The notes under the pieces are model-generated. The model was not told the origin of the DNA. It saw only the letters and a list, made by a program, of their open reading frames with translations, and searched no databases. Source: Actinophytocola xinjiangensis (GTDB lineage Bacteria; Actinomycetota; Actinomycetes; Mycobacteriales; Pseudonocardiaceae). From it: a stretch of DNA of 64,000 nucleotides. The stretch is taken from assembly GCF_001921215.1 (NCBI RefSeq), contig NZ_MSIF01000005.1, forward strand, positions 124,001 through 188,000, read 5' to 3'. The stretch's first letter is position 1; each line of letters opens with the position of its first letter. Both the position numbers and the translations under genes were made by a program. Positions 298 through 34,758 of the stretch are shown here, piece by piece.

Positions 298-1140
298 CTA
301 GCTCAGGGTTCGGACGTTGCGGGTGATCGCGGCGCGGGCGGCGAGGGCCTCGTCGGGTGGGTAGTCGACGGCGGCGAGGGTCAGGCCGTGGGCGGGGGCG
401 ACGGTGACCTCGCTGGAGCGGGCGGCGGCGGTCAGGAGTGTGGCCGGCCAGTCGGGTGGGCGGCGGCCTTCGCCCACCGACAGGAGGGCGCCGACGAGGC
501 TGCGGACCATCGAGTGGCAGAACGCGTCGGCCGACACCCTCGCCTCCAGGACGCCGGCGGCGTCCCGGGTCCACTCCAGACGCTGGAGTTCGCGGATCGT
601 GGTGGCGCCGTCGCGGCGTTTGCAGAACGCGACGAAGTCGTGCTCCCCCAACAGTGTCGCCGACGCGTCGGTGAGGGCCGCCAGGTCCAGGCGACGCGGC
701 CAGTTCACGGTGTCGTTGCGGCGCAACGGGTTCGCCGCCCACGGGTGGTCGCAGACGCGGTAGACGTAGTGCCTGCGCAGCGCCGAGAAGCGGGCGTCGA
801 ACGCGGCGGGGGCCGGGACGGCCGAGTGCACTCGGACGTCGCCGGGCAGCGCGCGGGCGAGGCGTTCGACCAGTGTCGGCGGCGCGTCGGCGAGGTCGCA
901 GTGGGCGACCTGGCCGGTGGCGTGCACCCCGGCGTCGGTGCGGCCGGCGACGGTGAGGCGCACGTCCTGGCGCAGGACCATCGACAGGGTGTCCTCGATG
1001 ACCCCGCACACCGTGCGCCGTTCGGGTTGGCGGGCCCAGCCGGAGAAGTCGGTGCCGTCGTAGGCGATGCCCAGCCGGAACCGGACGAGCCCGTCACCCC
1101 TGGGGGCAACGGGCTCGTCGGGTGTCGAACCGGAAATCAG
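298..1140 (-). CDS. truA: tRNA pseudouridine(38-40) synthase TruA
   Basis: Isomerises uridines 38-40 in the tRNA anticodon arm. The family core begins [14 protein letters not shown] and the catalytic aspartate lies in GRTDAGVH (D69 in this model). [11 protein letters not shown] and [15 protein letters not shown] are also typical. The first ATG, GTG or TTG in frame is the GTG at 1011, but that would remove the conserved N-terminal strand. The frame stays open upstream to a CTG at 1138-1140, which overlaps the rplQ TGA by three bases. GGAGGA lies six bases before it. A CTG start giving 280 residues is therefore preferred. It is the last gene of the infA-rplQ operon, as in other actinobacteria. 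Confidence 0.85.
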
Positions 1141-1865
1141 GACTCGTCCTCCGAAGCGGACTCCTGCGACGGCGGCTTGCTGAAGCCGGCCGCCTCCGCG
1201 TCCTCCTCGGTCCGGAACCAGACCTCGGCGACCGTGCGGTCGTAGAAGGCACTGCCGGGGGTGTGGAACAGCATCGAGTCGGCGTTGCCCTTGATCGGGA
1301 AGCCCTCCGGCTCGGAGCCGTCCTCCAGCGCGGCACGGCTGCCGGCGCCGTAGGGGTGCTCGTCGTCGGACTCGCTCTCCTCGACCACCACGTCGGCGGC
1401 CGGCTCGGCGACGTCAGCCGAAGCCGACGCGGCGGCGGCCGGCTCGGCCGGGGTCTCGTCCTTGGCGAAGCGGGTCTTGCGCGCGGCCTCGGCCTCGGCG
1501 GTGACCGTCTTCTCCTGGATGAGTTCGATGATCGCCATCGGAGCGTTGTCGCCCTTGCGCGGCAACGTCTTCAGGATCCGCGTGTACCCACCGTTGCGGT
1601 CGGAGTAGAACGGGCCGATCTCGGTGCAGAGGCGGTGCACGACCTCCTTGTCCCGGATCACCTTCATGATCATCCGGCGGTTGTGGAGGTCACCCACCTT
1701 CGCCTTGGTGATCAGGCGCTCGGCGTAGGGCCGCAGCTTCTTCGCCTTGGCCTGGGTGGTGGTGATCCGGCCGTGCGCGAACAGCGACGTGGCGAGGTTC
1801 GCCAGCATCAGCCGCTCGTGCGCCGGAGAGCCGCCCAGGCGGGCGCCCTTGGTTGGCGTGGGCAT
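1137..1865 (-). CDS. rplQ: 50S ribosomal protein L17 (bL17) with an extra C-terminal domain
   Basis: Residues 1-125 are the normal L17 fold (starts [20 protein letters not shown]), which sits near the exit of the peptide tunnel. A linker rich in Ala, Pro and Glu (126-170) leads to a separate domain at 171-234. Its core reads [24 protein letters not shown], then AGF and PPSQ. This matches the pattern called the sunset domain in actinobacterial annotation, and a close copy ends L4 in this window. The total of 242 residues is about twice the E. coli length. ATG overlaps the rpoA stop as TAATG. Confidence 0.95.
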
Positions 1866-17328: not shown

Positions 17329-17625
17329 TCAGGCCGGGCCGCCGAAGATCTCGATCGGCTTGCTCTCGGCCGAGAGCGTCACGATCGCTCGCTTGGTGTC
17401 CTTGCGCTTGCCGTAACCGGTGCGGGTGCGCTTGCGCTTGCCCTGCCGGTTCAGCGTGTTCACGCTCACCACCTGGACGCCGAACACCTTCTCGACCGCG
17501 ATCTTGATCTGGGTCTTGTTGGCATTGGGCGCAACGACGAACGTGTACTTGTTCTCCTCGAGCAGCCCGTAGGACTTCTCGGAGATCACCGGCGCGAGCA
17601 GTACGTCGCGGTGGTCGGGGATCAC
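17329..17625 (-). CDS. rplW: 50S ribosomal protein L23 (uL23)
   Basis: Tunnel-exit docking protein for trigger factor and SRP. The 98 residues begin at GTG 17625 ([20 protein letters not shown]), which overlaps the rplD stop as [23 protein letters not shown]-type residues form the rRNA-binding loop. Because rplD is extended, L23 is translated directly after the extra L4 domain. Confidence 0.96.
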
Positions 17626-18515
17626 TTGTCGTCCTCCTTACGCTGCGAGGGCGGCAGCTGGAAGCCGGCCTTCTCGGCGTCCTCGGCACTCGCGAACCAG
17701 ACCTCGGCCTCGGTGCGGTTGTAGAACGAGGTCCCCGGCAGGTGGTAGAGCTTGGAGCTCTGGTTGCCCTTGACCGGGAAGCCGTCGGGCTCCGAACCGT
17801 CGGCCAGCGCGGCGTGGCTGCCCTCGCCGTACGGCGCGTCGGCCTCGGCCACCTCGCCGGAGCGGGCGCTCGCCTTGGCACGACCCCGGGTGGGGCCCTC
17901 CAGGAAGGCGACCAGCGCGCTCTTGGTGAACACCACGTCGTCGTTGACGAGCACGTCGTAGGTGTTGAGCTGGTCGGGCCAGATCGTGTGCACGTTGGGC
18001 AGGTTGCGCACCGACTTCCAGCCGGTGTCCTCGCCCCTGGTCAGCACGACCAGCAGGCTGCGCGCCTCGCTGACCGTCCCCAGGAACGTGCGGGCGGCCT
18101 TGGTCGACGGGGTCTCCCCGTCCACCAGGTCGCTGACCACGTGCACCTGGCCGGCACGCGCCCGGTCGGAGAGGGCACCGCGCAGGGCTGCGGCCTTCAT
18201 CTTCTTGGGGGTGCGCTGGGTGTAGTCGCGGGGCTGCGGGCCGTGGACGATGCCACCGCCGGCGAACTGCGGCGCGCGGGTCGAGCCCTGGCGGGCACGA
18301 CCGGTGCCCTTCTGCCGGTAGGGCTTCTTGCCACCGCCGCGGACGTCACCGCGGGTCTTGGTCGAGTGCGTGCCCTGGCGAGCCGCGGCCAGCTGGGCCA
18401 CGACGACCTGGTGCATCAGCGCGATGTTGGCCTGCACGTCGAAGATCTCGGCGGGCAACTCGACGGTGCCGTCGGTCGCGCCGGCCGGGGTCCTGACCTC
18501 CACCGTCATGGTCAC
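17622..18515 (-). CDS. rplD: 50S ribosomal protein L4 (uL4) with an extra C-terminal domain
   Basis: L4 reaches the tunnel constriction through its extended loop ([36 protein letters not shown]). The core ends near residue 215. Residues 228-291 repeat the C-terminal domain of L17: [43 protein letters not shown] and PPSQ. Forty-four of 64 aligned positions are identical to L17. The 297 residues compare with about 201 in E. coli. It overlaps rplC and rplW by four bases each. Confidence 0.96.
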
Positions 18516-33514: not shown

Positions 33515-34141
33515 TCAACATTTCGGCTCCCCAACGCCACCGGACGGTGACTGTCCGAAGAAGTCGAGGCTGGTCAGAAGCCAGCTGTCGGCGCCGTCAC
33601 GTTCGGCCCGCGCCGCGAACTGGGAGGCACCGGTCGTGGCCGGCCCGTCACCGCGTGTCGAGGTCTGGTCGATGAACACGACCGCCTCGGCCCGCTCGCC
33701 GGTCAGCTCCACCAGCGCCACCTCGCGGACCGTCGTGCGCAACACGATCCGCTGCGTCACCGCCTGCTCCCGGACCTGGGCGAACAACTGGTCGTACTGG
33801 CAGCGGGCGTCGCCGGTCAGGTAGCGGTCGGCGGCCCGCTGCGCGGCGTCGAGGTCGGTGTGGTCGTAGCTGAACGCCGCCTCGACCGCGGTCCGCAACC
33901 AGTCGGTGACCTCGGCGGTCGCCGCCGTGTCGACCAGCGCCCGGTTGGGCGCCTGGGCGGCCTGCTCGGCGGCGCGCTCGGTGCGCCGGACCTGGTCGGT
34001 GACCCGGTCGGCGTCCCGCGCGGCCGAGCCGGCGGCGACGAACATCCACACCGACGCGCCGGCGAGCAGCACGGCCACCGCCACCAGCGCGAACACCGGG
34101 GCCCGGCCGGGGCGTGGGGGCGGCGGCTGCTGCGGGATCAC
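33515..34141 (-). CDS. Mce-associated membrane protein, type B (second copy)
   Basis: 208 residues from a GTG overlapping the previous stop as GTGA. After a Pro-rich cytoplasmic start comes one membrane helix (APVFALVAVAVLLAG) and an outside domain: AVEAAFSYDHTDLDAAQRA, DARCQYDQLFAQV. It matches the protein at 34752-35885 closely in this domain. Mce-associated proteins of this kind are thought to stabilise Mce transporters. It is the last gene of the mce operon before rpoB. Confidence 0.8.
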   Translation of the reverse strand: MIPQQPPPPRPGRAPVFALVAVAVLLAGASVWMFVAAGSAARDADRVTDQVRRTERAAEQAAQAPNRALVDTAATAEVTDWLRTAVEAAFSYDHTDLDAAQRAADRYLTGDARCQYDQLFAQVREQAVTQRIVLRTTVREVALVELTGERAEAVVFIDQTSTRGDGPATTGASQFAARAERDGADSWLLTSLDFFGQSPSGGVGEPKC

Positions 34142-34758
34142 CGGGGCTCCTCGTACGGGAGGCTGGACAGTGCGGACAGCTTCCACTCGTCGCCGGCCCT
34201 GGTCAGGGTGGCGACCATGCGCTGGTGGGCGGTGGTCGGACCGGCGCCGGCGGACTCCTTGACGACCTCGACGGCGGCCAGCACGGTCGCCGTGCCCGCC
34301 CGCTCGTCCAGGTCCCGGACCGCCAGGCGCACCACCCGGCCCTCGGTGACCGCCTCCATCTCGACGAGCTGGGCGCGCTGGTCCCCGGCGAGCGTGCTGA
34401 CCTGCTCGTGCAGCTCACCGGTGGTCACCTCGGCCCACGCCGCCAGGTCCCGGTCGACCGTGCGGTGGTCCAGGGTGTTGAGCACGGCGATCGCCCGCTG
34501 CGCGGCGACCGACACGTCGTCACGCACCGTGGCCACCGGTTGGACCTCGACGGCCGGTACCGTCGACAGCTCCCGCTCGGCGTCGGCCAGGTCGTCGTTG
34601 GCCACCACCAGCCGGACCAGCGCCCAGACCGCGACCCCGGCCGCCACCACCACCGCCACCACGGCGGCGACCAGCGGGGCCGCCTTCCGGCGGACCGGCT
34701 GGGGCGACGGCTGGGGCGATGACTGGGGCGACGGCGGGTACGGGGGCGCGTTCAGCAC
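34138..34758 (-). CDS. Mce-associated membrane protein, type A (second copy)
   Basis: 206 residues. A Pro/Ser/Gln-rich start precedes one membrane helix (LVAAVVAVVVAAGVAVWALV) and an outside domain with VLNTLDHRTVDRDLAAWAEV and TTGELHEQVSTLAG. This aligns with the protein at 35918-36604 (MNTLDYRELEDGLARWSAV). The GTG start lies seven bases inside the previous gene. No enzyme motif is visible. Confidence 0.8.
   Translation of the reverse strand: MLNAPPYPPSPQSSPQPSPQPVRRKAAPLVAAVVAVVVAAGVAVWALVRLVVANDDLADAERELSTVPAVEVQPVATVRDDVSVAAQRAIAVLNTLDHRTVDRDLAAWAEVTTGELHEQVSTLAGDQRAQLVEMEAVTEGRVVRLAVRDLDERAGTATVLAAVEVVKESAGAGPTTAHQRMVATLTRAGDEWKLSALSSLPYEEPR

Follow-up and report, generated by a model that had tools for sequence, protein, structure and literature searches.

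A sunset domain shared by the C-termini of ribosomal proteins L17 and L4 in Actinophytocola xinjiangensis and its tentative reading as a docking module

The ribosomal proteins L17 and L4 encoded in the window (the whole stretch of 64,000 nucleotides that was analysed) end in the same extra domain, the sunset domain, which we tentatively read as a tethered docking module by which a cytoplasmic partner would grip the ribosome, a reading that is quite possible though somewhat short of probable. The earlier note had claimed a gapless match between the two tails and this was borne out at exact coordinates, as residues 171-234 of L17 and 228-291 of L4 align without gaps and share 44 of 64 residues, with a BLOSUM62 local score of 247 against 52 for the best of 1000 shuffles. 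At the DNA level the two segments are identical at 143 of 192 positions. They lie ~16.3 kb apart, in agreement with the ~16 kb noted before, and their genes have distinct neighbours: truA (a call from a match of 128.7 bits, below its cut-off of 142.85), rpoA and rpsD for L17, and L3 and L23 on either side of L4, with S10, L2, L22 and S3 nearby. The features are as follows.

1137..1865, minus strand: rplQ, ribosomal protein L17 (bL17), sunset-domain variant; 242 aa from the ATG at 1865; PF01196, 135.7 bits
1518..1865, minus strand: L17 core, residues 1-116; PF01196 spans residues 20-116
1356..1517, minus strand: low-complexity Ala/Glu/Asp linker of L17, residues 117-170, read from the sequence
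1164..1355, minus strand: sunset domain of L17, residues 171-234; NF051437, 81.6 bits; 44/64 identical to the L4 tail
17622..18515, minus strand: rplD, ribosomal protein L4 (uL4), sunset-domain variant; PF00573, 217.1 bits
17835..17909, minus strand: low-complexity L4 linker, residues 203-227, ~25 aa; the PF00573 match stops at residue 202
17643..17834, minus strand: sunset domain of L4, residues 228-291; NF051437, 69.5 bits, and alignment to the L17 tail

L4 is 297 aa long when the GTG at 18515 is taken as the start, a reading that reproduces the earlier residue numbers, and the L17 linker measures 54-60 aa across the six genomes of the genus. Neither tail shows any Pfam-A domain. The name "sunset domain", given in the earlier note, proved to be that of a real NCBIfam model of 42 positions (NF051437), whose cut-off of 27 is passed by both tails. 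NCBIfam release 20 also holds the models 50S_L17_sunset (NF051448) and 50S_L4_sunset (NF051449), of which the window proteins are members over nearly their full length (346.2 bits over residues 1-231 of L17, cut-off 280; 430.9 bits over residues 18-285 of L4, cut-off 385), and the model names state no function. Since these variant models exist, the shared tail is already catalogued as a sequence fact and is not new. Further variants are listed by name for ArfC (NF051433), S2 of the 30S (NF051451) and L20 of the 50S (NF051450); they have the 42-position core in common with the window tails and differ in the host protein, and the variant models also match a segment upstream of this core. Our literature searches on the sunset domain or its ribosomal tails found no paper on the subject, and the available portion of PMC13392368 does not mention the tails. 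Elsewhere in the window, a 206-aa open frame (34141-34758, minus strand) gave no NCBIfam match at 1e-10.

The ribosome of Cutibacterium acnes carries such a tail. In the available portion of PMC10085706, the C-terminal extension of uL4 in the C. acnes 70S is reported to be exposed to solvent, to exceed its E. coli counterpart by 100 aa and to lack cryo-EM density, which the authors read as likely disorder. This extension (PDB 8crx, chain e) contains a sunset domain (E 1.6e-23), on the same ribosomal protein as in the window and with the tail unresolved in the map; unlike the window L17, the C. acnes L17 (8crx_m, 187 aa) is without one and matches residues 1-176 of the window L17 only. Because an extension that is described there as lacking density holds a sunset, the likely arrangement is a folded domain at the end of a flexible leash, the leash being suggested by the sequence together with the missing density. 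On such a leash the sunset of L17 or L4 would be accessible on the ribosome's solvent side, where a putative cytoplasmic partner may bind it. The same partner may also bind the sunsets that end membrane-protein tails, which might collect ribosomes or keep them at one place in the cell, for instance the membrane. The C-terminus used would need only to be exposed. This would account for the use of L17, L4 and S16 (S2 and L20 by name) in different lineages and for a single copy being enough. The question could be looked into on the C. acnes ribosome, which is already at hand as a system.

We looked at the distribution of the domain in genome samples that were species-level draws, some of the genomes being incomplete, with the family sample taken as Pseudonocardiaceae; hosts were assigned from motifs, hydropathy and inspection by eye unless a model score is given. 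At E up to 1e-3 the genome itself encodes four sunset domains, on L17, on L4 and on two adjoining genes just outside the window, and within the genus the domain ends L17 in 6/6 genomes and L4 in 3/6. Any sunset was detected in 135 of 150 family genomes. Among the matches listed, which go down to ~58 bits and so miss weaker ribosomal copies, and with positions compared by eye, it was on L17 in at least 23 and on L4 in at least 6 of these 150 genomes, 6 of which yielded no L4 at all. All six L4 carriers, three of them from one genus, are also L17 carriers (Fisher p 7e-6, among the matches listed). Of the 150 genomes in the order sample, 12 carried the domain on L17, three on L4 and two on S16. 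The earlier note had further proposed that the two copies, both close to the peptide tunnel, might act together. This idea was not supported, though the copies may have a partner in common: 17 of the 23 family L17 carriers are without the L4 copy (among the matches listed), only two of the 15 ribosomal carriers in the class sample of 246 genomes have both (seven have it on L4 only and six on L17 only, degenerate copies included), and in the solved ribosome of C. acnes L4 carries the domain but L17 does not. S16 and S2 are 30S proteins located away from the tunnel exit. As the domain sits on various hosts and most ribosomal carriers have a single copy, neither the tunnel position nor L17-L4 pairing looks essential.

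Among the L17 loci of named genomes, the sunset was present in 41 of the best 80 of at least 591 matches to the window L17, which are therefore no random sample; carriers among these best 80 include Pseudonocardia, Gordonia, Tsukamurella, Nocardioides, Kribbella, Kocuria, Rothia, Microbacterium and Intrasporangiaceae. The match to the L17 core covers 375-381 bases rather than the usual ~291 in seven genomes (G396, G428, G452, G471, G487, G502 and G399), which suggests an insertion of ~28-30 residues in their L17. Five others (G408, G436, G456, G475 and G491), genomes in which no sunset of any kind was detected at E up to 0.001, have L17 open frames of 245-257 aa, possibly reflecting other tails or an upstream open frame.

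The history of the tails was read from a quick tree of 122 domains and 65 columns with few strong branches, from which matches below 60 bits were excluded and which includes 30 selected non-ribosomal domains. Sunsets group on it by host protein (11 label changes, where shuffling gave 41.6 on average), and the L4 sunset of the window clusters with L4 sunsets of its genus and of G381 (96, starred), away from the L17 sunset of the window. This L4 sunset is identical at 57/61 and 54/61 positions to those of two genomes of the same genus and at 41/61 to the L17 sunset of the window, and recent copying from the window's L17 to its L4 is out, since its L4 sunset is closer to the L4 sunsets of the genus. 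As L4 tails sit on several separate branches, repeated gain of the L4 tail is likely and not forced, the tree having seven L4 label changes of which the starred branches force only one. A phage origin was likewise rejected, as the phage collection gave no match at E up to 0.01 and eight viral-contig loci have other architectures; in these, read by eye, the sunset ends a virion-like protein (L261), a multi-TM protein with a repeat linker (L262-L267) or an SNase-like protein (L268). Within the genus, pN was 0.06-0.25 for the L17 sunset against 0.03-0.09 for the L17 core. As pN was below pS in 14 of 15 genus pairs and above that of the core, the L17 sunset is, judged from these substitutions, under constraint that is weaker than on the core. 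Its faster protein change, together with degenerate copies (L172, L173, L176 and L177), means that the sunset can be lost.

A nearly neutral mobile tail, that is a compact and soluble C-terminal fusion which spread by recombination and is tolerated on exposed ends of ribosomal proteins without any specific role, is a possible but rather unlikely explanation. It is favoured by the patchy occurrence (L17 in at least 23 of 150 family genomes among the matches listed, a sunset on some ribosomal protein in 15 of the 246 genomes of the class sample), by the degenerate copies and by protein change faster than that of the core. However, the core residues are invariant across distant lineages, the L17 sunset is present in 6/6 genomes of the genus, and the L4 tail was likely gained several times, with the number of label changes and the single forced one as given above.

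The AF2 model of 65 residues of the L17 sunset (1161-1355) is compact, with pLDDT 89.8 and pTM 0.76. Its predicted fold is probably related, without the zinc, to that of the N-terminal domain of Ada (PF02805; PDB 1u8b, 1wpk), although the list of structural comparisons was short and another fold may apply. In the Pfam search neither L17 nor L4 matched PF02805 at E up to 1. Local alignment of the sunset profile with PF02805 gave E 1.9e-6 and Prob 89.6 over 45 columns, with reversed and shuffled controls negative, and dropped to Prob 22.4 and E 1.9e-4 when forced end to end. Ten residues (P16, K22, G23, S27, H31, T41, F47, A53, A56 and G57) are invariant in 44/44 sunset rows, and N24 and W46 are kept in 98% of them. 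When the columns are read off the profile alignment, the position of Ada Cys38, the methyl acceptor, is His in 44/44 rows, and the four presumed zinc-ligand columns show no Cys, with His at 31, Ser/Gly/Thr at 35, Ala/Pro/Val at 61 and various residues at 64. The methyl-acceptor column is Cys again in many membrane-type proteins of the family (L133, L145-L148, L150, L157-L161, L179 and L212-L223; 18 of 95 non-ribosomal sunsets without a Cys pair) and is mostly His in ribosomal sunsets. The probable link to Ada would supply a fold, a first structural guess and residues that can be tested, namely the invariant His, Lys-Gly-Asn and Trp-Phe.

The similarity in profile and predicted fold to N-Ada, which binds DNA, and the presence of some secreted-type relatives on nucleases would be in line with a sunset that contacts mRNA, rRNA or DNA as Ada does. 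We consider such nucleic-acid binding improbable, given that the zinc ligands and the methyl-accepting Cys are absent and that all 94 distinct ribosomal sunsets are acidic (net charge -11 to -1; means of -6.9 on L17, -3.4 on L4 and -4.0 on S16). Since the net charge on other hosts ranges from -9 to +9 besides, a conserved basic face is unlikely.

The domain also occurs on a range of other proteins. A bS16 ending in a sunset was identified in L136 (1833-2795; S16 model 209 bits, sunset 73 bits), with no S16-specific sunset model among its NCBIfam matches, and a second one, by sequence reading, in L140 (1725-2522) of the same genus; no S2 or L20 host was recognised among the classified matches, and these two are known by NCBIfam names alone. 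Many hosts are predicted single-pass membrane proteins, namely ArfC-like, LGFP-repeat and Ala-rich proteins, one of the last (L126) weakly resembling DUF5324. A further membrane type, seen in the family, combines a helix at the N-terminus with a long linker that is largely acidic. By a crude positive-inside count, which includes residues upstream of true starts and leaves membrane orientation uncertain, 46 of 69 membrane-type domains with fewer than two Cys appear inward, 19 outward and four tied; the DUF5324-like hosts L126, L138, L139 and L141 look C-out by charge. Two Cys were found in 13 of 108 distinct non-ribosomal sunsets and in none of the 94 ribosomal ones, which have no Cys at all. 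A hydrophobic segment precedes the domain in 11 of the 13 two-Cys hosts by hydropathy, and of the remaining two one is lipoprotein-like by eye and the other (L131) is a fragment. A Pfam scan of six of the 13 gave SNase in one, GmrSD_C in two and B_lectin in one, and in the other two nothing over the cut-off except SpaA_3 (26.1 bits) in L171. A clean rule that a Cys pair marks the outside is contradicted by L268 (SNase-like, exported-looking by eye) and L261, both without the pair. The nuclease-type and secreted relatives named in the earlier note thus stand with the SNase and GmrSD_C hosts, but the range of hosts is broader, extending to single-pass membrane proteins, bS16 and, by NCBIfam name, S2 and L20.

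Ribosomal sunsets might directly bind membrane-anchored sunsets and so tie ribosomes to the membrane, a bridge that we hold to be more improbable still than nucleic-acid binding. Of the 135 family genomes with a sunset of some kind, 112 have none on L17 (among the matches listed), and tandem copies occur (four in L186 and three in L187, both non-ribosomal; two on L17 in L224 and L068; two in L007), both of which would suit a bridge. Against it, six of the 12 order-sample carriers (G129, G115, G041, G004, G033 and G054) and 10 of the 15 class-sample carriers have a ribosomal sunset without any other at E up to 1e-3, and the tree separates 27 of the 30 non-ribosomal domains chosen, which all come from the family of this genome, from the ribosomal sunsets (98, starred). 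That the tails are proteolytically removed in mature ribosomes and act during assembly only, for example as solubility tags, is very improbable: the missing density of C. acnes uL4 fits loss and disorder alike, but the authors, in the available portion of PMC10085706, read it as likely disorder, and a flexibly tethered folded domain would account for it as well.

The docking reading, which we prefer, is favoured by the presence of one domain above its cut-off on both proteins, the confident compact model behind a low-complexity linker, the exposed uL4 tail of C. acnes, the bS16 and membrane hosts, the invariant residues and the acidic charge of the ribosomal sunsets. It is also compatible with the tandem copies, which on L17 and on non-ribosomal proteins fit a binding module, and as many carriers have the ribosomal sunset only, a membrane sunset protein would not be a required companion. 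It has evidence against it in these ribosomal-only carriers, in the faster protein change, in the degenerate copies, in the C-out DUF5324-like hosts and in the co-occurrence of the two kinds of host, a non-ribosomal sunset being present in 23/23 family L17 carriers and in 112/127 other genomes, which is not significant (Fisher p 0.13, among the matches listed). A wider proposal, that a zinc-free Ada-fold docking module has moved repeatedly onto exposed ribosomal ends (L17, L4 and S16; S2 and L20 by name) and onto cytoplasmic tails of membrane proteins and would form an undescribed system for placing or capturing ribosomes, is speculative and on balance doubtful. A swappable folded domain common to ribosomal and membrane proteins is unusual, ribosomal proteins being among the most conserved, and if docking is true the sunset would give a handle on how actinobacteria position their ribosomes.

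On the same contig, the two adjacent genes just outside the window that end in a sunset (L133 4935-5654 and 5753-7423) adjoin apparent 2-oxoacid:ferredoxin oxidoreductase genes, read by eye and from a KorB-like motif. An adjacent pair of sunset matches is present in 6/6 genomes of the genus, and the KorB-like motif was seen in 16 of the 31 family loci checked, which differ in flank length.
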